A stretch of DNA of 63,167 nucleotides from Candidatus Woesearchaeota archaeon (GTDB lineage: Archaea > Nanobdellota > Nanobdellia > Woesearchaeales > JAFCFN01): assembly GCA_017608625.1 (NCBI GenBank), contig JAFCFN010000004.1:1-63167 (forward strand), in the 5' to 3' direction. The notes beneath the pieces are model-generated. The model saw only the letters and a program-made list of their open reading frames with translations, did no database searches and was not told the DNA's origin. Positions 8,623 to 38,863 of this stretch are shown here, piece after piece (within the stretch, counting starts at the first letter, position 1; each line of letters starts with the position of its first letter). Both the position numbers and the translations under genes were made by a program.

Positions 8623-8735
8623 GTTGTATAATACAACACTTTTCTTTAATTTACTCTTATTTGTTATATCATACAACTAAGTTGTATCATACAACAGAAA
8701 GATTTAAATATCAGTTATTTGTTGTATGATATAAA
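8623..8735. promoter_or_regulatory. Four palindromic operator-like boxes around the HEPN/NTase promoter
   Basis: The boxes follow GTTGTATNATACAAC. They lie at 8623-8637 (perfect arms), 8663-8677 (one mismatch), 8681-8695 (perfect) and 8721-8735 (left arm perfect, right arm decayed). Centre spacings are 40, 18 and 40 bp. The TATA box GATTTAAATA (8701-8710) lies between the third and fourth box, and the fourth ends exactly where the HEPN ATG (8736) begins. A protein bound here would block TBP access and transcription start, as expected for autorepression. Confidence 0.75.
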
Positions 8736-9080
8736 ATGAGTGAAACTGAAGATATTTTAATTAATAATGCTAAAGAATACTTTAAAAATGCGCTAGAAGC
8801 TCAAACTAAAAACGAGTTTAATACAGCAGTCACATTATTTTTTAAAGTAATGACTGCATTGTGTGATTTGTTTATTCTTAGAAAAGAAGGCAGTATACCA
8901 ACTTCCTATGCAAATCGATTCAGAATATTGGAAGCAAGATACAAGGAATTATATGATCTGATTGATAAGGATTTTCCTTTTTATCAGGAAAGTTATAAAA
9001 CAAGACTTACTAAAGAGGTTTCTTTGATTTTATTTGAAGATGTTAAAAAAATATCAAAAATCGTTGGGATTGATCTGTAA
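8736..9080 (+). CDS. HEPN-domain protein, probable toxin-like partner of the adjacent nucleotidyltransferase
   Basis: A 114-residue all-helical protein: LINNAKEYFKNALEAQTKNEFNTAVTLFFKVMTALCDLFILR is the long paired-helix start of HEPN domains that partner with nucleotidyltransferases. The strict RNase motif R-x4-6-H is not evident; RFRILEARYKEL contains arginines but no histidine, so catalysis is uncertain. It could be a structural partner rather than an RNase. The ATG directly abuts an operator-like palindrome and lies about 30 bp past a TATA box, so the mRNA is probably leaderless. The next gene overlaps it by 41 bp, which suggests coupled translation of a two-component pair. Confidence 0.65.
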   Translation: MSETEDILINNAKEYFKNALEAQTKNEFNTAVTLFFKVMTALCDLFILRKEGSIPTSYANRFRILEARYKELYDLIDKDFPFYQESYKTRLTKEVSLILFEDVKKISKIVGIDL

Positions 9081-9621
9081 TAAATTTAAAAGAAAACACA
9101 AGGATATCATAGATATAGTTCTTTATGGTTCTTTGGTAAAGGGAAAAATAAAATCAAGAGATATTGATATAATGGTTATTTTTTTGAATACTGAACTAAA
9201 AACACGTCTAGAAATTATACAAGAGCTTAAAAGACAATTACGCGTTTCTTTAGAAAATGTTGATGTAAAGTCCATGAATTTTTCTGATTTTTTTGATCCT
9301 ACTTTTCTTGCGAGACAGGGAATTTTAATCGAAGGAATAAGCTTGATCGATAAAAAGAGCTTAGCAGAAAAATTAGGATTTAAAAGTTATGCCATATTTA
9401 CTTATAATCTTGCTAATTTATCCCATACTGAGAAAATAAAATTCAATTATGCATTAAATGGTAGAAAAGGGACAGGTGTTTTACAAAATTTAAAAGGAAT
9501 GTCCTTGGGAAAAGGGGTGGTTCAAGTACCAATCACAACTAGTTTAACTTTTGAAGAATTTTTAGAAAAATGGAACATTCAATATAAAATTAAGCACGCC
9601 CTGATATCTTTTTATGTTTGA
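9040..9621 (+). CDS. MNT-type nucleotidyltransferase fused to a small C-terminal domain shared with the 38.5 kb protein
   Basis: The nucleotidyltransferase core is clear: VLYGSLVKGKIKSRDIDIMV, a GS-x9-D-x-D active site, with a later Asp in LENVDVKS. The ATG at 9040 is preferred over TTG at 9034. MNT proteins paired with HEPN proteins often act as antitoxins that AMPylate the partner. The protein is longer than a minimal MNT: after about residue 108 it carries an 80-residue domain with the landmarks IFTYNL, EKIKFNYALNGRKG, LGKGVVQVPI and FEEFLEKW. The same landmarks make up most of the stand-alone protein at 38482-38778. Because both genes have palindromes around their promoters, this domain may be the autoregulatory part; that is inference. 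The 3' end overlaps the convergent NFACT gene by 10 bp. Confidence 0.75.
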   Translation: MLKKYQKSLGLICNKFKRKHKDIIDIVLYGSLVKGKIKSRDIDIMVIFLNTELKTRLEIIQELKRQLRVSLENVDVKSMNFSDFFDPTFLARQGILIEGISLIDKKSLAEKLGFKSYAIFTYNLANLSHTEKIKFNYALNGRKGTGVLQNLKGMSLGKGVVQVPITTSLTFEEFLEKWNIQYKIKHALISFYV

Positions 9622-28251: not shown

Positions 28252-28710
28252 ATGCAATTTTTCATTTATTTTTTGGTATCAGCAATATCTTTCTTAGGTT
28301 TGGCATTTGGAATAATTATAGCATTTATTGCTAAAGATGAGCTAAAACAAGGAAAAAAGTATTTTATTACATTGCAAAACGCAATTGTAGCTTTATCAGT
28401 AGGTGTTTTAGCTTATTTTTATAAAATTGATTTATACTTTGTTGTGATTTTGACACTGCTGATTTTTTTTGTATTATTTTACATTGAAAATGTAAAAAAG
28501 AGTTACGTGATCTATCCGTTGCTTGCATTTATATTTTATATTAGCAGTGGAATTACTTCTTTTTTTGTTGTAGAATCTGTGTTAATCTTTTTATATGGAT
28601 TTCCAACAGCAGCTTTGTTGGTTAGAAAAAGAAAAGACATAATATATGTTATTTTAAAGCACATACCTTTTTTGATTATTGTAAATTTTCTTCCTTTAGT
28701 TTTTCCTTAA
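28252..28710 (+). CDS. Integral membrane protein of unknown function
   Basis: 152 residues with about five hydrophobic segments (residues 3-25, 40-58, 60-80, 88-112 and 130-150) and short charged loops (KDELKQGKK, VRKRKD). No family is recognised. It follows the coiled-coil gene by 2 bp and ends inside the convergent MinD gene, a 35-bp overlap of 3' ends. Confidence 0.6.
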   Translation: MQFFIYFLVSAISFLGLAFGIIIAFIAKDELKQGKKYFITLQNAIVALSVGVLAYFYKIDLYFVVILTLLIFFVLFYIENVKKSYVIYPLLAFIFYISSGITSFFVVESVLIFLYGFPTAALLVRKRKDIIYVILKHIPFLIIVNFLPLVFP

Positions 28711-29491
28711 GCAAAGTTCTATTAACCTCTTCTTTCCCAACATTTTTTGAAAAAAGCCTTTTAATTTTTGCTATTACTCTAGGATCTTTGTAGTTTTCTC
28801 CAATTAATGCTGCTGCTAATTTTTTGTATTCTATAACCGCTTTACCTAAAGGAGAATGCTGAGAAGCAGGGATTGTGTAAGCAACGGATTCAAGTATTTT
28901 TATATCCTCTGGCAGTACAGCTAATACAGGCACATCTGTTGCTTCCTCTATCTCCTCCAAGCTTAATTCGAATTTTTTATTTCTAACTTTATTTAGTATC
29001 AAACCAGCAATAGGTGTCTTCTTTCTTTTTGCCACTTTTACAGCGTGCATTGTACAGCTTAAAGTTGGAAAATCCGGGGATGTTACAGCAATTAGCTGAT
29101 CAGATGCAACCATTGTTGCTATAATCTCTTCATTTAAAGTAGGAGAAGAGTCTAGTATAATCACATCATAATCTTTTTTGATATCATTTAGTTTTCTCTT
29201 TAATTCAAAAGGATTTATCTTTCTTCCTAGTAAAGCTCCTGGAAGAACATCAAACTGCTCATACTTTTTTATTGCTTTTGTTATTGGGACATTTTTGTTT
29301 AAAACATCATGCAGTGTAAATTCTGGATCAACTATACCTAGATGTAAGCCTAGATTTGGAGCAGAGAAATTAGCATCAACAATTAGAACCTTTTTATTAA
29401 ACTCATTGGCTAAGATAGCACCTAGATTAACAGCAGTGGTTGTTTTCCCTACACCTCCTTTTATAGAAATTACCCCAATAACTTTGCCCAT
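28676..29491 (-). CDS. MinD/ParA-family ATPase
   Basis: 271 residues. Deviant Walker A KGGVGKTTTAVNLGAIL at about residues 11-27, then VLIVDANFSAPNLGLHLGI (switch I region) and YDVIILDSSPTLNEE (Walker B/switch II), then VTSPDFPTLSCTMHAVKVAKR. The C-terminus ends in a basic, amphipathic region (IAKIKRLFSKNVGKEEVNRTLLKEKLKEENLQ) that could touch membrane or a partner. Such ATPases place other structures in the cell by ATP-dependent dimerisation. GGAGGTG sits 8 bp before the ATG. It is the last gene of the 38.8-28.7 kb operon, after the giant coiled-coil surface protein, and may be positioned by it. Confidence 0.9.
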   Translation of the reverse strand: MGKVIGVISIKGGVGKTTTAVNLGAILANEFNKKVLIVDANFSAPNLGLHLGIVDPEFTLHDVLNKNVPITKAIKKYEQFDVLPGALLGRKINPFELKRKLNDIKKDYDVIILDSSPTLNEEIIATMVASDQLIAVTSPDFPTLSCTMHAVKVAKRKKTPIAGLILNKVRNKKFELSLEEIEEATDVPVLAVLPEDIKILESVAYTIPASQHSPLGKAVIEYKKLAAALIGENYKDPRVIAKIKRLFSKNVGKEEVNRTLLKEKLKEENLQ

Positions 29492-29584: not shown

Positions 29585-32500
29585 TTATTTATACACTTCT
29601 TTTAGTTTATTAAGCAGATGTTGTTTATATTCTTTTGTTTTTTTGATTTGTTTTTTAGTCTTTTCATCCAGTTTTTCTATATCTTTAATTATGTCTTTTA
29701 CAAATTTCTTTGCTTCTTTTTCAGCCAGCAGTTCCTTCCTTTCTTCTATTTTCTTAACTATTTCTTTTTTAACATTAATATCTTTTTCTATTTCTTTTTC
29801 AGCCTTTTTATAGTCTTCTATTTTTCCAATTCTTTCTTTAAGTTTCTTTATTGTTTCGGTTTCTATTTTATTTATATCTTTAACAGCTTTTTTGAATTCT
29901 TTTAGATCTCTTTCTTTTTTGTTTAGAACGGCTAGTTCGAGTTTCTCTTTGAAAGTAAGTGATTCTTCTTTTTCTGACAATTCCTCTTTTTTAGGCAATT
30001 TTACAAATTGTCTTTCTATTACTTTTTCCTTTTCTTTTAACTCTTCAATCTTTTCCTTCTTTTTAAATAAATCTTTTTTAATGCCAGTTAATGCATTTTC
30101 TAACTTTTTCAGCAGTTTTGTATTCTCAACTATACCAAATGTTGAAGCAGTTATTTTTTTATCCAACACTTCACACTCTTTTTGAATATTTTTTAGCTCT
30201 TCTTTTTCTTTATCAAGAAGTCTTATCTTAGACTGTTCTCTTAAAGCTAATACTCTTTCTTTATTTTTTAGTTTCCTTATTTTGTTTATGATTAACTTAA
30301 TATTTAAATCAAGGTTTTTCAATTTCTTTTCCAAGTTCTTTAAAGGAGCGTCTGCTTTCTTTTTTAGCGCATCAGGAATAACTACCCCTGCTCTTTCAAA
30401 TCTTGAGAATTTAGCTTCTTTTCTTTTGTAAAGTTCTTTGAGTAATTTAACAAATCCTTGTTTCTTGATTTGGAAATTTTGTTCATCTTTTTCAAATTCT
30501 TTTCTTACATTAGATAAAGTTGATTTTTGACTTGAAAGTTTTTCTATAGTAGTTTGCAGTAAAGCAATTCTTTCATTGGTTATAGCTTTTACAAGCTCTT
30601 TTTCTTTTTTAATAGATTCTAGCTTTTTGAGATGCTCTTTATAATCATTGAGTAAGTCCTGAGTTGCTGCAATTTTGGTTTTTATATCCTTAGATAATTC
30701 TTCATCTTTTTTGATTAATGTTAGCAATTTGTTTTCTTTGTTCTTCAACTTTCTTTCTTTTGTTTCTATTTTTCTTATATCCTCTGTCATATCTTCTATC
30801 GCTTGCTTTCTCTCATTAAGCTTTTTCAGATCTTTTTCTAATTTTGTTATCTCGTTTTCTAATCTTGTAACTTTTTCTTCATCTTTTTTCTTTATTGTTT
30901 CTAAACTAATGACAAACTCTTTACCTTCTTTTTCAAGCTCTCTTGTTTTTGCTATTTTTTCTTTTAACTCTTCAATCTTCTCTTTTTCTTTTACTAAATC
31001 TTTAGGTTTGATTGTTTTCTCTATTTCTATCTTTAGTTTGCCAGGGAACTTTTCAATTTTATCGGCCATCTTATGCCCTACTCTTATAATTTCTTCTTTA
31101 TGTCTTTGTACAGTTACTATTATAGTAATAGATCCAGAGATGCAGACAAGTGTTATTAGTATCCATAAGATATTATTTTCTATAGTATCGACCACAGAAT
31201 TTACTGCTGAGGAAATCCAAGCTATTAATTTAGGTCTTTCTTCTATGTGGGGTTTTGGGATCTCTTCCATAGGATGAATTTCTTCCGGCAGTGTTGGAGC
31301 TGTATAATTACAACTCCGTATTTCTGTTTTATTACCTAGACCACATGCTATATCTTTACATATTCTTGTTTGGGTTCCATTTTCTGTACACTCAGACCAC
31401 TCTGTGCAGTTCCATTTTATAGAACATCCTGCTTTGCCTGCTCTGCTAGGTGCAGGAGCAGCACAATCAACTGGGCAATTATTATAATCTTCTCCACTAT
31501 CACATATTCCGTCTCCGCAATAACTTTCTTGTTTTATTGAGAATCCTGATAAGTTTGTAAGTGTTATTGTTAAGGTGTCTTCTGTTTTATCTTGCACCAC
31601 ATTACTTAAATATTGCCATGTTCCTCCACATTCTTGTTGACTAAAATTCCAGTCAGCACACTTATACAAGCTAAGATAGTTTTCATTTGTAAATGCTATA
31701 TTGCTGTAATTGAAAGTTAGTGTGACATTGCTTTGGTTAAACTCACTTTCAACAGCGTATGTTGCTAAATAACCTGTTACAGGAGTTTGCTTTTTGTCTA
31801 TTCTAAGTGTTTTATTGTTGTATTTTGTTAGATTAACATTATTTAATTTTATTTTTATTGAACTATTGTATGCTTCGAAAAACAGATCATAATTCAAAAT
31901 AGGTTGTGAGCTATTCAGTGTTTCATTAAATTGATAATTGCTTACTTCTTTTTCTGTTCCAGTAATGTAAAGAGTGAGATCTACTGGAACATTATTTCCA
32001 TTACTATCTTTCACAGTTATTGTAAACTCGAATCCTGTATTTGATATGAAATAATCTGTTATGTTTACTAGATTTCCTAAAGTGTCATTAGCATAGAAAG
32101 TTATATCATATCTGCCATTAATTGTTGTTGAATAATTTAACGGGAATGATGTTATTGAAGCAGTTGTTGAGTCTGGCAGTGTTATTGTTGCCCATAGAGT
32201 TGATATATTTGAGTTATCAGTCGCATTTGCATCTATTGTTATATTCTCTCCAGTCATAACAGCAGCGGGATATATTGAGTAATTTATAGTTGGAGGAGTT
32301 ATCTCTGTTCTAATTTTATAATTATAATATTCTGTGCTATTCCAGTTATTGTATAAATCACTAGCAAGCCATCTATAATTGTATTCTCCTACTGAAAGAT
32401 TTGTAAATGTGTAATAATACACATCTCCTGATTTTGTTGTTACAGTAAAATTCTGGCCATTAAATTCTAGAATTACTTTGCTTATGTTTACATTATCTGT

Positions 32501-35500
32501 CCATGTAGCATAAAGTGTAAAGAATGTTTCATTTAGTAAAGCAGGAGATTCAGGATCTGCTCTTATGTTAAAGTAAACAGGAGCAGATAAGTCAGCTATA
32601 TTAAAGTATGTTTTTTGTGTATTATTTAGATTGTTTGATGTATCATTTACAATTATTGTTATGTTATATCTTCCTAGATAAGTTGTGTCTGTGAAGAGCT
32701 CTTCATATAAACCAGAGCTTGAGTTATAGCTTAGTTCTAGTAATTGATCGTTGTCAGCCCATTCAATATTTGCCAAAACACTATCAATAGCAGTTTCATC
32801 AGATGCATTTACCTTTATAGCGATTGGAGTATTATAATTATAAGTTACATTAGTAAGTGGAGCTGTTATAATCACACTTGGAGCAGTTATATCTATAACA
32901 TCAAAGAAATCAGTTTCTGTGTTGTTCGTATTATTGGATGCATCTCTTGCAATTATTCTTATGTAATATCTTCCTGCTGGATCTTGATTAGTAGGAGTAT
33001 AAGTATAATACCATACGTTATTGTCACTTTTTATCATGTCAAATGTCAGTGTTATGTTGTCCGGCTTTGTTATATTTAGTTTTACAGTCACATTTGTAGC
33101 GTCTATTACATTTACAGTTATATTAGTTGTTTGAGTTTGATTAATTACTCCAGGCGTTGTTGTTATGTTTATTACGGAAGGATTTTGTGTATCTTGCACT
33201 GTTATAAGGAGTGTTTTTGAGCTGGATGAATAGTTTCGCGTAGTAGGATAAACTGCTGTTATATTATAAACACCTAGTTCAGTGTATGTTGTTGTATTTT
33301 CTAATGGGCTTGTACCATTATTAATCAAAGCTCCATCTTGATATAGTTCTAGATAACCTGCTGGAGGAGTAATTGTTTCTGCCTTAATTGCTACAGCTGT
33401 GTTTATTTCTATTGTTTTATTTTCTGTAAGATTATCTAGTGTTAAATTGATCGAAGAGTTTGCTTTGTTTATCATATACTCTGACAGAGGTGTACTATTC
33501 CAATTATTGTAAACGTCGTTTGCATACCATTTATATGAATAATTTCCAGCAGGAAGGGATTGTATAGTGAAATAATACTTGTCTCCAGATTTTGTAGTTA
33601 CTGTGTTATTTTCTCCATTGAGTTCAAATAGTACAGAGTTAACTTTTATATTATCTGTCCATGTGCAATAGAAAATATAGGATTGATTAGGGCTATATGT
33701 TGTTGGTGAAACTGGATCAGTAGTTATATTACTCCAAGCTGGAGGGGAGATATCATTTATTTCAAAACTTGTTTTTTCTGTATCGTTTACATTATTGGAT
33801 GTATCATTGGCTATTATTGTTATATTGTATTCTGTTATTATTGACGTTTCATCAAAAACATTCTCATAAAATAAAGAAGTTGAATTATAGTTTAGTTTTA
33901 GTATTCTGTTATTTCCATCCCAACTTACATTTGCTAGAACACTGTCTACTTGTGTTTCATCTGTTGCATTAACTTTGATAGGTACTACAGAATTATAATC
34001 ATAAATTGTATTTTCAACAGGTTCTATAATCTCCACAACAGGTTTTGTTATGTCTAATACTGTAAAGTTTATAGTTTCTGTATCATTTATATTATTAGAT
34101 GTGTCATTTGCAATAACTCTTACGTAATATATTCCTGCTTTGTTTTGATTGTTTGCGGTATATTCATAATAGTATACATCATTGATGCCTTCTAACATTT
34201 CATAACTTTCAGTTATATTATCTGCACGGGTTATGTTTACAATTACTTTGCTAATATCTGTGTTGTCTGTTACTATGACTGTTATATTTGTTGTTTGAGT
34301 CTGGTTTATTGTAGCAGGAGTAGCAGTTAAGTTAGTTACAGAAGGATTTGTATTGTCCTCTACTTCTATGAAATGGGTTTCATAGCTAGGAGTATAATTT
34401 CTGCTTCCATTATAAATAGCAGTTATATTGTAGATTCCTGTTTCATTATATATCATAAAAATTGTTAGTGGAGATGAGCCATTAGCTATTTTTACACCAT
34501 TTTGGTATAACTCGATATAGCCTGTAGAAGGAATTATTAAGGTTGCTGTTATGTTTACTTGTAAACCAGCTTCTATTGTGATATTTTCATCATAATTGTT
34601 TAGTGTTAAGTTAATTAATGAAATCATTTTTGGATTTACTGTAACATTATCTGTTAGCTTGATTAGTTCTGTTCCTATTGAATCACATGTAACATTATAA
34701 TCAAATGTTCCGTTTTCTGCAAATGACCTGTTATATTCATATAACTCTGTTGTTGTGTTGAATATCATTATTGCACTTGAATCTGCAAAATCAATTGTAC
34801 AAATTGCAGCAAGTATGGGATTTCCATTTACAACTTTTGTATAATTAGCAAAGAATTTTATTTGTTCATCTACATATTTTGTTTGATTGGCATAAGGCAT
34901 ATCTTTATCAGTTTCATCCCAGATTACTAGTTTTGCATTTCCTGCTGTTGTAAAAGATGTAAAGTGACTTACATTAAATATCGCTGTGCCATTTACATAA
35001 CTTACATTTGAACAAATTGAAGCATTACAATACTCTCCATTTATATATACGTCAGGAGCATCCTCCCATCCGAGATTTCTGATGTAGAGTGTAGCAGATG
35101 AATTAAAACTAGAATGTAGCCCAGTGATTGTTACATTATTATAAGAAAGTTTTACTGCTGTATCAAAATCCTGATCAACTGCATTAACACATTCATGCCA
35201 TATTACCATGTCTGTATCAGGATTGTCAAGTATGGCTGTACTGTTACATACATTACTTAAATCAGGTAAAGAAGCCCAATCTGTTGTGTTTCCAGAGAAA
35301 TTACTGTAGTTTGGTACAGCCTCTCTGTTCACTTCTACAATTCTTGTTAAAGAGATATTCTTGTGTCCAAGCGAATCATAAACTTCACAATACCAGGAAT
35401 AGTTTCCGTCAGAGAGGTTCAATAATGTAAATTCTGCAGTTGTGTTTGTTCCAGATATATTGACTGTTTTGTTTAAGGTTCCTTCAAAATAAAAGGAGAT

Positions 35501-38485
35501 ATTTTTAAGGTTAAGATTGTCAATTACACTACAGTTAAAGTAAATATTTCCATCTCCATCAACTGCATTATCATTTGGTGAGAGAGAAGTAAATGAAGGA
35601 GGAGTTGTATCAACAGTAAAGCTTCTTGTTTCACTTGTATTTATATTATTTGCATCATCCCAACAAGTTATATTCCAGTAGTGTGTGCCATCACTAAATC
35701 CTGAGACTGTATAGTTCGTTGCTGTAGCATTATGACTTATTATATTGCTAGCATTGACAATACCATCAATAGTTAAATTGCAACGCAAACCTACATCAAG
35801 ATTATCTGTAGCTGTCCAATTAAAGTTAATTTCAGTAGAGCTTGTATTAAATGTATCCAATGGGGAATTTATAGTTATTGTTGGCTTTGTATTGTCTATT
35901 ATGAAATAGTATGCCATTAAATCAAAGCTGCATCTATCATAGATATCACAAGCCTCTATTTTTATCTTGTATTTTCCGTCAGTAGCTGATGTTGTATCAT
36001 ATATCTGAAATTCTGTTCCTTCTGGCACAGAACTGTTAATTGTCTCAAGAAAACCATTATCATAAGTCATTAAACTGACATTATAATCAAAAGGATCTCC
36101 ATTAGGATCATGCGACGCAAGCCAGGTTATATTTAAAATTCCTTTATAAACTTTGAAATATTCTGGATTAGTGATTTGCGGTTTTGTTGGTGGATCCCTG
36201 CCTTGTTCCCATATATCAGTCTGTAGAGTGGAGTATGCATTATTTCCTAAGCTGTCATTTGCCCAAACCTTATACTGGAACTGCTGATTGTTAGCAAAGT
36301 CAAACCAGTGAATATGTGCATCTGCCTCCCAATTATTTTCTAAGTTCCATGTTGTTCCATTATCAGCAGAATAATAAGTGTGCCCTGTTCCAAGTGTTAT
36401 GTTTTGCCTTCTTAACTCCCATGCAGCACTTATATTACTTACATCACGCGCTTCCAATATTATTGACATGTTTGGAGTAGCTTTAACACTTAATATTGTT
36501 CCATTAGAATTTATTGAGAAACGCAAGAATTTCCTTCCATAAGGCAAGGTTGGATCAAATGGTTCAAGCCCTCCAATATACACACAATTTGCATTTGTTA
36601 AAGGATCTCCTGCAGTATAACTAGAGTTACAATAATATACATCAAGATCATCTACAGTTCCTGTTTTATTGACAACATATACCTCAAGTCTATAGCTTAC
36701 ATTTTCAGCAACATAAAGTCCTGTGAAATTTATTTTTACAGAACGATTTACATAAATATCTTCGTAAGTACTGTTAAACTTATCAAGATCTTTAATAAAT
36801 AGATTGTATTTGCTTGGCCTATAAAACCAGTGAGATATATTTGCACACCATCTTCCATTTTGAAGACTGCCTCCTATTAAACTCATGTTAACATAACCAG
36901 GATCTTCTGGAATAATTCCAGCTTGCTCAGCTGTGCCACTGTTGTTATAGTAAAGTTTAGCTTCTGTTATGTTTGTTACACCTGTTATATTTACCTTTAT
37001 CTGGATATCTCCTCCACTACTAGCATTAAGATCAGAAGGAATTTGCTCCCAGTCAGAGAAAGAAGGGTATATTGAAATACCTCTAATTTGAATGTCGTCA
37101 ACTTTACACTCTTCATTTGGCACACTGCTATAACATCTAAACCTTATTTTAAAGTTAGGATTGTTATTAGCATCAGGTGTTAAACTATTGTTATCAAAAG
37201 TATAAGCAGCAGTATTTGTTCCTGTGATATTAAGCACATTAATCCAAGTTGTGCCATTATACCAATCTGCTCTTAGGTACTCTCCTGCATCAAGTCCATC
37301 AGTATCATACCAAAAACTAAAGGTTATATTCTTATAATTGGCTGTGCTAATGCTTGTTTCAATTATACTTTCACCATCTGTATTTTCAGTTTCTATATAA
37401 TAAATTCCAGCATAAGGATCATCTGTTGCAATTGCCCAAGCTCTACCTATTCCTGAAGTAGTCCAATTGTTTGTTGCTAAAGAAGCAGATTCCCAGTCTT
37501 CAAAGAATGTTCCACTGAAATTTGACAAAGGCGCAGCATCATGGATATAATCAAATTCCAGATATGTTATTGGTCCTTGGGTGCTTATAATTTTAAAATC
37601 AAACTGATTTGTTTGGTAAGAGAGATTATTTAGAATTATGTCTTGCCATTCTCCTGAAGAGTTAAATACTTTGGATTTTCCTAATAATGGGGAAGTAGTA
37701 TTAACATGATAGATTTCAAACCAAGTATTTTTAAGTTCTTGATTCCTTACATAAACATTAATAATGCTTCCATTTGTTAGATTGTGAGCAAATGTAACTC
37801 TTATAAACTCATTTGCATAAATTGGTTCTGACCAATTATCATCTTTGCGCTCAACTTCAGCAAATATGTCAGAAATGAATGAATAATTACTATCTAAATG
37901 TTCAGCAGCAGTAATATTAATCTCAGCAAATCCTGGATCCTCTGCTGTTAAAACAAAAGTATATTCTTGTCCAGGTATAATATTCATTAACTTAGTCCAG
38001 CTGCCGTGACAGCTTTGTTCTGTAAAATTCCAGTCTTTACATTTATATAACATGGTTCCTTTTGCTACTGCAGTTACAGTCGCATTATCAAAGACTATAT
38101 TGGTTGGGTCAATGGCATAAACCTCAACAAATTTTCCTTCTTTTTCATTTGGAACATCATCTATACCAATTTCAATTGTTTCATTGTATGTTAAATTATT
38201 GAATTCTATTTTCTTTACAGGGGTTGATTTTGGAATTACCTCAACCTTTTTTCCTATAATATTAATCTCTGCATAAATTGAATTATTCTTGCTATCTTTT
38301 AATTTATAATCAGCCATGGCTAAGATAGAAGCATTAGTTATATTAGTTCCATTTACTTTATAGACTGCTTCGCCTGCTTGAACAAAAATATCATTAATAA
38401 TAGGAACAGCTATTATTTGTGGCAATAATATTATAGCAACTAATGCAAAGATACAGATTCCAATTATTGCTTTTTTGTTGTTCAT
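29585..38485 (-). CDS. Giant single-span surface protein with Ig-like ectodomain and cytoplasmic coiled coil
   Basis: 2966 residues. An N-terminal signal segment (AIIGICIFALVAIILLPQIIAV) leads into about 2400 extracellular residues made of Ig/cadherin-like beta domains, very rich in Asn-x-Ser/Thr sequons. Two tandem modules of about 387 residues repeat (landmark INQTQTTNITV near residues 1386 and 1774). An LYKC-x-DWNF-x2-Q-x-C motif occurs near residues 143-160 and again near 2271-2288. A CGDGICDSGEDYNNC segment (about 2320) and a thrombospondin-1-like WNCTEWSEC...TQTRIC unit (about 2351-2392) lie before a membrane span at about 2437-2459. The remaining 500 residues are basic/acidic heptad-like coiled coil, predicted cytoplasmic by the positive residues after the span. 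It overlaps the upstream 98-residue gene by 4 bp (ATGA), and a MinD-like ATPase follows. Confidence 0.88.
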   Translation of the reverse strand: MNNKKAIIGICIFALVAIILLPQIIAVPIINDIFVQAGEAVYKVNGTNITNASILAMADYKLKDSKNNSIYAEINIIGKKVEVIPKSTPVKKIEFNNLTYNETIEIGIDDVPNEKEGKFVEVYAIDPTNIVFDNATVTAVAKGTMLYKCKDWNFTEQSCHGSWTKLMNIIPGQEYTFVLTAEDPGFAEINITAAEHLDSNYSFISDIFAEVERKDDNWSEPIYANEFIRVTFAHNLTNGSIINVYVRNQELKNTWFEIYHVNTTSPLLGKSKVFNSSGEWQDIILNNLSYQTNQFDFKIISTQGPITYLEFDYIHDAAPLSNFSGTFFEDWESASLATNNWTTSGIGRAWAIATDDPYAGIYYIETENTDGESIIETSISTANYKNITFSFWYDTDGLDAGEYLRADWYNGTTWINVLNITGTNTAAYTFDNNSLTPDANNNPNFKIRFRCYSSVPNEECKVDDIQIRGISIYPSFSDWEQIPSDLNASSGGDIQIKVNITGVTNITEAKLYYNNSGTAEQAGIIPEDPGYVNMSLIGGSLQNGRWCANISHWFYRPSKYNLFIKDLDKFNSTYEDIYVNRSVKINFTGLYVAENVSYRLEVYVVNKTGTVDDLDVYYCNSSYTAGDPLTNANCVYIGGLEPFDPTLPYGRKFLRFSINSNGTILSVKATPNMSIILEARDVSNISAAWELRRQNITLGTGHTYYSADNGTTWNLENNWEADAHIHWFDFANNQQFQYKVWANDSLGNNAYSTLQTDIWEQGRDPPTKPQITNPEYFKVYKGILNITWLASHDPNGDPFDYNVSLMTYDNGFLETINSSVPEGTEFQIYDTTSATDGKYKIKIEACDIYDRCSFDLMAYYFIIDNTKPTITINSPLDTFNTSSTEINFNWTATDNLDVGLRCNLTIDGIVNASNIISHNATATNYTVSGFSDGTHYWNITCWDDANNINTSETRSFTVDTTPPSFTSLSPNDNAVDGDGNIYFNCSVIDNLNLKNISFYFEGTLNKTVNISGTNTTAEFTLLNLSDGNYSWYCEVYDSLGHKNISLTRIVEVNREAVPNYSNFSGNTTDWASLPDLSNVCNSTAILDNPDTDMVIWHECVNAVDQDFDTAVKLSYNNVTITGLHSSFNSSATLYIRNLGWEDAPDVYINGEYCNASICSNVSYVNGTAIFNVSHFTSFTTAGNAKLVIWDETDKDMPYANQTKYVDEQIKFFANYTKVVNGNPILAAICTIDFADSSAIMIFNTTTELYEYNRSFAENGTFDYNVTCDSIGTELIKLTDNVTVNPKMISLINLTLNNYDENITIEAGLQVNITATLIIPSTGYIELYQNGVKIANGSSPLTIFMIYNETGIYNITAIYNGSRNYTPSYETHFIEVEDNTNPSVTNLTATPATINQTQTTNITVIVTDNTDISKVIVNITRADNITESYEMLEGINDVYYYEYTANNQNKAGIYYVRVIANDTSNNINDTETINFTVLDITKPVVEIIEPVENTIYDYNSVVPIKVNATDETQVDSVLANVSWDGNNRILKLNYNSTSLFYENVFDETSIITEYNITIIANDTSNNVNDTEKTSFEINDISPPAWSNITTDPVSPTTYSPNQSYIFYCTWTDNIKVNSVLFELNGENNTVTTKSGDKYYFTIQSLPAGNYSYKWYANDVYNNWNSTPLSEYMINKANSSINLTLDNLTENKTIEINTAVAIKAETITPPAGYLELYQDGALINNGTSPLENTTTYTELGVYNITAVYPTTRNYSSSSKTLLITVQDTQNPSVINITTTPGVINQTQTTNITVNVIDATNVTVKLNITKPDNITLTFDMIKSDNNVWYYTYTPTNQDPAGRYYIRIIARDASNNTNNTETDFFDVIDITAPSVIITAPLTNVTYNYNTPIAIKVNASDETAIDSVLANIEWADNDQLLELSYNSSSGLYEELFTDTTYLGRYNITIIVNDTSNNLNNTQKTYFNIADLSAPVYFNIRADPESPALLNETFFTLYATWTDNVNISKVILEFNGQNFTVTTKSGDVYYYTFTNLSVGEYNYRWLASDLYNNWNSTEYYNYKIRTEITPPTINYSIYPAAVMTGENITIDANATDNSNISTLWATITLPDSTTASITSFPLNYSTTINGRYDITFYANDTLGNLVNITDYFISNTGFEFTITVKDSNGNNVPVDLTLYITGTEKEVSNYQFNETLNSSQPILNYDLFFEAYNSSIKIKLNNVNLTKYNNKTLRIDKKQTPVTGYLATYAVESEFNQSNVTLTFNYSNIAFTNENYLSLYKCADWNFSQQECGGTWQYLSNVVQDKTEDTLTITLTNLSGFSIKQESYCGDGICDSGEDYNNCPVDCAAPAPSRAGKAGCSIKWNCTEWSECTENGTQTRICKDIACGLGNKTEIRSCNYTAPTLPEEIHPMEEIPKPHIEERPKLIAWISSAVNSVVDTIENNILWILITLVCISGSITIIVTVQRHKEEIIRVGHKMADKIEKFPGKLKIEIEKTIKPKDLVKEKEKIEELKEKIAKTRELEKEGKEFVISLETIKKKDEEKVTRLENEITKLEKDLKKLNERKQAIEDMTEDIRKIETKERKLKNKENKLLTLIKKDEELSKDIKTKIAATQDLLNDYKEHLKKLESIKKEKELVKAITNERIALLQTTIEKLSSQKSTLSNVRKEFEKDEQNFQIKKQGFVKLLKELYKRKEAKFSRFERAGVVIPDALKKKADAPLKNLEKKLKNLDLNIKLIINKIRKLKNKERVLALREQSKIRLLDKEKEELKNIQKECEVLDKKITASTFGIVENTKLLKKLENALTGIKKDLFKKKEKIEELKEKEKVIERQFVKLPKKEELSEKEESLTFKEKLELAVLNKKERDLKEFKKAVKDINKIETETIKKLKERIGKIEDYKKAEKEIEKDINVKKEIVKKIEERKELLAEKEAKKFVKDIIKDIEKLDEKTKKQIKKTKEYKQHLLNKLKEVYK

Positions 38486-38778
38486 TTCTCAACAAACACC
38501 TTCTTTTTTTCATAAGCACATTTCCATAATTTTAGGAAATCCTCTACTTCAGGAGCATATTTAATAGAAACAAGAAGAACTGTTCTTCCAAGATGTTCTA
38601 TATTTAATGCTTTAATTATACCAGATTTACCATCTCTTCCTTTAAGAGCATAATAAAATCTGACTTTGTCTTTTTTCAGCAAATGTTCTGTAGAATAAGT
38701 AAAAATTAGTGCCTCTTTATAATTCTCAATAGAATTCTCTTTATCCTCTTTTTTTGCTGGCATTTTGCTAAAAAACAT
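38482..38778 (-). CDS. Small protein matching the C-terminal domain of the 9.0-9.6 kb nucleotidyltransferase; candidate autoregulator
   Basis: 98 residues; a second ATG at 38763 gives 93. After a charged leader, the landmarks are LIFTYSTEHLLKKDKVRFYYALKGRDGKSGIIKAL, then LGRTVLLVSI and VEDFLKLWKCAYEKKK. They line up with IFTYNL, EKIKFNYALNGRKG, LGKGVVQVPI and FEEFLEKWNIQYK of the NTase at 9040-9621, with only a one-residue gap. No known DNA-binding family is recognised. Its promoter has two copies of a 17-bp palindrome flanking the TATA box, and it is the first gene of the operon with the giant surface protein, so an autorepressor role is plausible. This is inference. Confidence 0.65.
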   Translation of the reverse strand: MFFSKMPAKKEDKENSIENYKEALIFTYSTEHLLKKDKVRFYYALKGRDGKSGIIKALNIEHLGRTVLLVSIKYAPEVEDFLKLWKCAYEKKKVFVEK

Positions 38779-38789
38779 AAAATTGTTAA

Positions 38790-38863
38790 TGTTAAATAGA
38801 TTAACATTACTGCTATATAAAGGTTTTGGTGTTATATTTATTAACTTGTTAAATAGGTTAACA
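38790..38863. promoter_or_regulatory. Two palindromic operator-like boxes flanking the TATA box of the surface-protein operon
   Basis: TGTTAAATAGATTAACA at 38790-38806 and TGTTAAATAGGTTAACA at 38847-38863 differ at one spacer base. The first has longer arms (TAATGTTAA...TTAACATTA, 38787-38809). Between them, on the minus strand, lies CTTTATATAG (TATA, about 38813-38822), about 25-30 bp before the region where the transcript should begin. One box covers the start region and the other lies upstream of TATA. Centres are 57 bp apart. Confidence 0.75.

Follow-up and report, generated by a model that had tools for sequence, protein, structure and literature searches.

Analysis of contig JAFCFN010000004.1 (positions 1-63,167; the whole of this stretch is the window referred to below), from a 646-kb, 98.7% complete genome of a Candidatus Woesearchaeota archaeon, points to a new autoregulatory DNA-binding domain. 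With a probability that we put at roughly 0.83, the domain would bind palindromes as a dimer and autorepress toxin-antitoxin-like and giant-protein operons. It is present in the window as the stand-alone protein P0001 and at the C-terminus of an MNT-type nucleotidyltransferase (NTase).

38482..38778, minus strand: P0001, stand-alone domain copy and predicted regulator of 98 amino acids (translation, NTase homology, AlphaFold2 model)
9379..9618, plus strand: domain copy at the NTase C-terminus (BLASTP; profile match at 9373-9606, E 8.5e-25)

P0001 and the NTase (9040-9621) shared 27 identities over 78 residues (35%) with one gap in a single BLASTP comparison (E 1e-13). Searching the same genome with P0001 retrieved the NTase C-terminus (E 4.7e-10) and a third copy (E 3.7e-9), which is also an NTase C-terminus and has a partner gene of about 120 codons. 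The homology of the two regions, proposed in the original prediction from shared landmark residues, was confirmed by BLASTP and by profile, and a 40-row profile recovered NTase C-termini in many genomes. P0001 matched no family in Pfam, NCBIfam, or PADLOC, and no Pfam or NCBIfam profile of the known archaeal regulator families (helix-turn-helix, winged helix, ribbon-helix-helix [RHH], Lrp) matched it. None of 40 domain sequences gave a meaningful match in Pfam, their profile matched no PDB sequence, and a full-text search of the open-licence PMC literature found no description of the domain or of the palindrome pairs.

The promoters of both genes contain palindromes on either side of the TATA box, as had been predicted, and were annotated from the sequence as follows.

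38790..38806, minus strand: operator O1, TGTTAATCTATTTAACA, between the TATA box and the start codon (exact genome-wide matches)
38814..38821, minus strand: TATA box of the P0001 gene, TTTATATA
38830..38846, minus strand: operator O2, imperfect palindrome AGTTAATAAATATAACA, just upstream of TATA, dyad 40 base pairs (bp) from that of O1
38847..38863, minus strand: operator O3, TGTTAACCTATTTAACA, dyad 17 bp upstream of that of O2 (exact genome-wide matches)
8623..8637, plus strand: operator GTTGTATAATACAAC of the NTase operon
8663..8677, plus strand: operator GTTATATCATACAAC of the NTase operon, 40 bp after the GTTGTATAATACAAC site
8681..8695, plus strand: operator GTTGTATCATACAAC of the NTase operon, just upstream of TATA
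8703..8710, plus strand: TATA box of the NTase operon, TTTAAATA
8721..8735, plus strand: operator GTTGTATGATATAAA, abutting the ATG at 8736, 40 bp after the pre-TATA site

The P0001 promoter thus has the order O3-O2-TATA-O1-start, with dyads spaced 40 bp (O1-O2) and 17 bp (O2-O3), and its O1/O2 pair was recovered with one mismatch in a 40-bp pattern scan. The four sites of the NTase operon are spaced 40, 18, and 40 bp, the last pair flanking TATA. These two unrelated kinds of operon have only the domain and the palindromes in common.

Matching palindromes were scored blind to the protein in 141 operon 5' ends (4 of 145 promoters were dropped because their upstream region was too short; the promoter sets contain a few near-duplicates, most loci obtained twice from two collections having been removed by hand). 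The best pair score reached at least 21 in 72 of the 141 compared with 2.3% of dinucleotide shuffles, and at least 23 in 28 compared with 0 of 1692 shuffles. When each spacing from 18 to 70 bp was tested at a score of 20, a pair at exactly 40 bp was found in 55 of 115 promoters (47.8%), followed by 58 bp (8.7%), 18 and 38 bp (5.2% each), and 0 to 2% at most others. Left out of these 115 were 26 NTase loci without the HEPN-like partner motif, several of which do have palindromes (e.g., L031, L033, L097, and L099). Natural control promoters from the same loci had the pair in 4 of 398 cases (Fisher, 1.6e-36); three of these positives lie in L082 and L089/L046, where a domain gene is present, which would if anything inflate the background count. 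Among PF18765 NTases without the domain, the pair occurred once in 27 (3 of 30 loci were dropped for want of a readable frame), and this one positive is second in line after a stand-alone domain gene, which leaves 0 of 26 independent cases. A held-out set was drawn from other orders within the class; of 40 regions fetched, 7 had been seen before and were omitted, and 9 of the remaining 33 operons had the pair at 40 bp, compared with 0.93% over 26 other spacings. By the strict test and in the held-out set alike, homologous genes have palindromes on both sides of the TATA box.

In 38 of the 55 pairs, a TATA-like octamer begins 15 to 17 bp downstream of the first dyad, and the commonest position of the ATG is 8 bp after the second dyad (16/55). 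With one site upstream of the B recognition element (BRE) and TATA and the other between TATA and the start, the layout fits exclusion of TBP/TFB and polymerase. The 40-bp spacing is not universal, since in one genus outside the order GGTTTA-type palindromes flank TATA at 30 to 43 bp. That genus (L305, L307, L313, L317, L323, L334, and L335) encodes a 170-residue NTase with the motif K-x-L-F-N-Y-A-L and has GGTTTA-N2-TAAAC palindromes at variable spacing.

In the mechanism that we propose, the ferredoxin-like domain of about 80 residues would bind a 15- to 17-bp palindrome as a dimer, its helix 1 reading the half-site. Two such dimers would occupy sites spaced exactly 40 bp, the first immediately before BRE/TATA and the second between TATA and the start codon, and would thereby deny TBP/TFB and RNA polymerase access to the operon's own promoter. 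The MNT-NTase fusion would in this way autoregulate a two-gene toxin-antitoxin-like operon, and the stand-alone protein would mostly autoregulate a promoter that chiefly serves a giant secreted-type protein, the gene of which comes directly after its own. The data show the homology, the architectures, the occurrence of the domain together with TATA-flanking palindrome pairs, the 40-bp geometry, and the association between operator class and residues of helix 1; that the domain physically binds DNA, dimerises, and represses instead of activating, as well as any signal, is what we infer. The original prediction that the domain binds DNA and represses its own promoter is supported by the TATA-flanking pairs; repression is proposed because of the position of the sites and because of a precedent, the Shewanella MNT antitoxin SO_3165, which reportedly binds and represses its own promoter, a promoter with two palindromes (PMC4621449). 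Activation as the main effect, through TFB/TBP recruitment from the site upstream of BRE, or a concentration-dependent switch, is improbable in our estimate. The site directly upstream of BRE/TATA is a possible activator position, but a dimer bound at the second site would block initiation, and the SO_3165 precedent is one of repression.

Modeling of P0001 with AlphaFold2 from 40 sequences gave a ferredoxin-like beta-alpha-beta-beta-alpha-beta fold (predicted local distance difference test [pLDDT], 91.2; predicted template modelling score [pTM], 0.74), with strands at residues 20-29, 61-64, 67-71, and 88-97 and helices at 35-46 and 72-84. Matches from Foldseek and VIA-align were generic ferredoxin-like proteins, the best with a Z of 8.6 and a root mean square deviation of 2.5 over 69 residues, and a BFVD fold search gave no convincing match. 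The predicted fold is compatible with DNA binding, because the ferredoxin-like fold serves DNA-binding and other proteins alike; the model thus did not assign the domain to a fold known for lacking DNA binding. The natural tandem protein L091 was modeled with a pLDDT of 89.1 and a pTM of 0.76, again with generic fold matches.

Half-site preferences were compared among 63 clear-pair promoters. Positions -7 to -5 were G, T, and T in 58, 59, and 60 of them, position -4 was variable (A in 36, G in 19, and T in 8), and the inner bases varied further. Distances between operators and between domains were correlated (Mantel r 0.29, a value reached in 0 of 5000 permutations). Residue-operator association was strongest for six columns, which correspond to P0001 residues 46, 39, 35, 44, 42, and 38, all within the predicted helix 35-46 (hypergeometric, 4e-6), and residues 35, 39, 42, and 46 share one face of this helix 1. 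The helix stayed enriched under other class definitions (Mann-Whitney p 0.004-0.02). The association between half-site class and helix 1, although confounded by phylogeny, supports the earlier proposal that each copy is tuned to its own site. A one-residue code, in which the residue between F and Y of K-x-x-F-x-Y sets the half-site, was rejected because L195 (F-N-Y) has TTCTTAC and not GTTGTA, and because F-Y-Y proteins split between GTTAA and GTTGGTA.

The palindromes could instead belong to a conventional regulator, such as a winged-helix or RHH protein, and the domain would then not bind DNA but serve these operons as an effector or for dimerisation. Ferredoxin-like domains frequently interact with ligands or other proteins, and several of the best matches (PII-like, CutA1, and ACT-type regulatory domains) are examples of this. 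We consider this unlikely, as the specificity of a separate protein would have to shift in step with the domain across many genera; moreover, the half-site class follows both the domain and helix 1 within it, and the pairs are missing from NTase genes that lack the domain. A role of the palindromes in RNA, as terminators or translation-control hairpins, is highly improbable despite a 40-bp pair in a transcribed place, the stop codon of the R/K-V-x-F-H-Y NTase class, as each promoter pair includes a site before TATA, untranscribed from that promoter, the stems are short and A+T-rich, and the fixed 40-bp spacing has no evident reason in RNA hairpins.

Several observations weigh against an autorepressor that reads these sites. 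Sixty of the 115 promoters fell below the strict threshold, and no palindrome was seen by eye at the stand-alone genes L015, L067, L068, L070, L088, L090, and L011/L075. The fold matches are generic, many of them non-DNA-binding proteins, and the tandem L091 model had no convincing match to a known DNA-binding dimer. The residue-operator association is confounded by descent: columns outside helix 1 were also positive (median z 2-3.6), and when the classes were defined by a single base position, the helix held only four of the eight highest-ranking columns.

The P0001 gene is followed by two genes on the same strand.

29585..38485, minus strand: giant protein of 2966 amino acids with an N-terminal hydrophobic segment and immunoglobulin-like domains (Big_7, 4.3e-15)
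28676..29491, minus strand: MinD/ParA-type ATPase, a neighbour and probably no conserved part (Pfam AAA_31, CbiA)

The start of the giant gene overlaps the P0001 stop by 4 bp, and such a 4-bp overlap of a stand-alone gene with the following gene is frequent. After 7 of 51 distinct stand-alone genes had been dropped as too near the end of the fetched DNA, 30 of the 44 evaluable ones directly preceded a long open reading frame (at least 400 amino acids, or at least 250 if running off the fetched DNA), in 28 cases with an N-terminal hydrophobic segment. Control genes preceded one in 36 of 243 cases, 26 with the segment (Fisher versus stand-alone, 2e-12). Copies outside the main clade (e.g., G012, G033, G058, G070, and G086) also sit before long genes, and as an exception the stand-alone gene of G001 precedes an MNT gene. 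The stand-alone copy had been proposed to head an operon for a giant protein and a MinD ATPase; the giant gene held up, and MinD was rejected as a part of the system, with a MinD-type P-loop in 0 of 43 related loci, its gene being a same-strand neighbour of the giant gene across a gap of 93 bp.

The other copy had been placed on a HEPN/MNT pair.

9040..9621, plus strand: MNT-type NTase with the domain at its C-terminus (Polbeta PF18765, 6.5e-10, 39.5 bits, cut-off 26.9)
8736..9080, plus strand: P0003, helical partner of 114 amino acids, HEPN-like by position

The MNT assignment stood, with PF18765 above its cut-off; the NTase scored 27.2 bits against the NCBIfam MntA equivalog NF047752, below the cut-off of 60. 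Identification of the partner as HEPN is weakly supported, as neither P0003 nor six partner proteins matched Pfam HEPN. A profile of nine partners reached 4nqf ("Nucleotidyltransferase") at E 0.06 only, with TPR proteins scoring higher, and a spacing resembling Rx6H (the HEPN motif being Rx4-6H) is visible in some partners and absent from P0003.

A single-sequence query found the domain in 44 of 99 relatives, and the profile found it in 151 of 352 genomes from the order, where most copies are NTase C-termini or stand-alone proteins, and in 145 of 371 genomes of a phylum sample. The 43 named loci are mostly labelled Woesearchaeota, with a few labelled Nanoarchaeota, Pacearchaeota, Aenigmatarchaeota, and Altiarchaeota. 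Locus L093 is labelled Aminicenantes bacterium, probably through a binning or naming error, because a matching contig occurs in the archaeal genome G043 of the same order. The architectures comprise stand-alone proteins of about 90 to 120 residues, NTases of about 190 residues with the domain at the C-terminus, and tandem double-domain proteins (L091, L092, L094, and L095), the last being attractive single-chain dimers for structural work. A 1441-residue protein containing the domain (G028) was discarded as an artefact of a stretch reading N. In a tree of 140 domains with identical domains removed, the architecture labels required 11 changes compared with a shuffled mean of 43, and well-supported branches forced at least 6 to 7 changes between the two main labels, which implies several gains, or losses, of the stand-alone form. 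A viral origin was rejected: none of 52 candidate stretches in viral contigs was confirmed, and BFVD contained no convincing fold match.

Whole genomes (n = 193) were scanned with two GTTAA-N5-TTAAC palindromes separated by 25 bp, allowing up to two mismatches. This GTTAA-type 40-bp pair occurred at 44 places in 24 genomes, compared with 2 places for a reversed control. By hand count, 34 of the 44 adjoin a domain gene, 7 of them directly behind an NTase stop codon, and 10 do not. Single palindromes (TGTTAA-N5-TTAACA, up to one mismatch) gave 19 places versus 11 for the reversed control and are therefore poor evidence, only the 40-bp pair being specific. One exact single copy of the operator lies in the same genome at L001 1501-1517 (contig C3), directly after the stop codon of a tyrosine recombinase that by eye resembles XerA; no second site accompanies it at 40 bp.

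Among the places away from domain genes, where protein names were assigned by eye, the operon of ribosomal protein uL3 is preceded by a pair, about 180 to 260 bp upstream, in the same genome (L260 3189-3243, contig C10), in the congener G001, and in G270, the last with two overlapping places (the other positions being L246 2766 and L249 2471 and 2511; two families). In G349 and G350, pairs immediately precede lipoprotein genes that resemble each other by eye, and in G011 a pair is located some 1 kb before the gene of a lipoprotein similar to these (L247 2662, L248 2258, and L251 2513). These are candidate extra targets, and to judge by the uL3 pairs the stand-alone regulator may touch ribosome synthesis. 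In the R/K-V-x-F-H-Y NTase class, a second 40-bp pair starts at the stop codon of the NTase, irrespective of the orientation of the following gene (L253-L259, also L152, L196, L131, L134, L140, L150, L155, and L162). The operon is therefore bracketed by operator pairs, possibly for looping or as a cassette boundary.

Taken further, a domain shared with MNT antitoxins would repeatedly have become a stand-alone, coupled autorepressor of giant cell-surface proteins, in some genera also acting on the uL3 operon and the lipoprotein, with a GTT-core palindrome whose variable inner half-site is read by one face of helix 1; we give this extended scenario even odds. The genomes of these archaea are tiny, and few regulators have been recognised in them; their giant surface proteins are generally regarded as serving contact with hosts or neighbours. 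A probable DNA-binding role can be assigned from sequence alone to a domain found in about two-fifths of the genomes of the order, with a predicted target for many copies, and the rigid 40-bp arrangement makes whole genomes searchable for targets. Helix 1 and the half-site vary naturally, which provides a ready data set on recognition, from which, if our reading is true, a code could be deciphered.

The predicted fold is shared with ferredoxin-like proteins (procarboxypeptidase pro-domain, LarC2, PII-like, and Cas2) at no more than 18% identity among the matches listed; these relatives are mostly not sequence-specific DNA-binding proteins, and the likeness looks generic. Viral domains of the E2/EBNA1 type are dimeric beta-barrels of beta-alpha-beta-beta-alpha-beta topology that bind palindromic sites and read the major groove with helix 1. 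A possible likeness of our domain to them lies in topology, palindromic sites, and a likely reading helix 1; there was no sequence match, and no E2/EBNA1 member was among the matches listed in the PDB or BFVD fold searches. The NTase operon resembles the type VII HEPN-MNT systems (HepT/MntA; Shewanella SO_3166/SO_3165) in being a two-gene operon with an MNT NTase. SO_3165 is reportedly without a predicted DNA-binding domain, and its two palindromes are dissimilar (PMC4621449). Unlike in SO_3165, a separable C-terminal domain here accompanies matched palindromes 40 bp apart, and the family exemplifies one route by which a putative DNA-binding part can belong to the MNT antitoxin itself.

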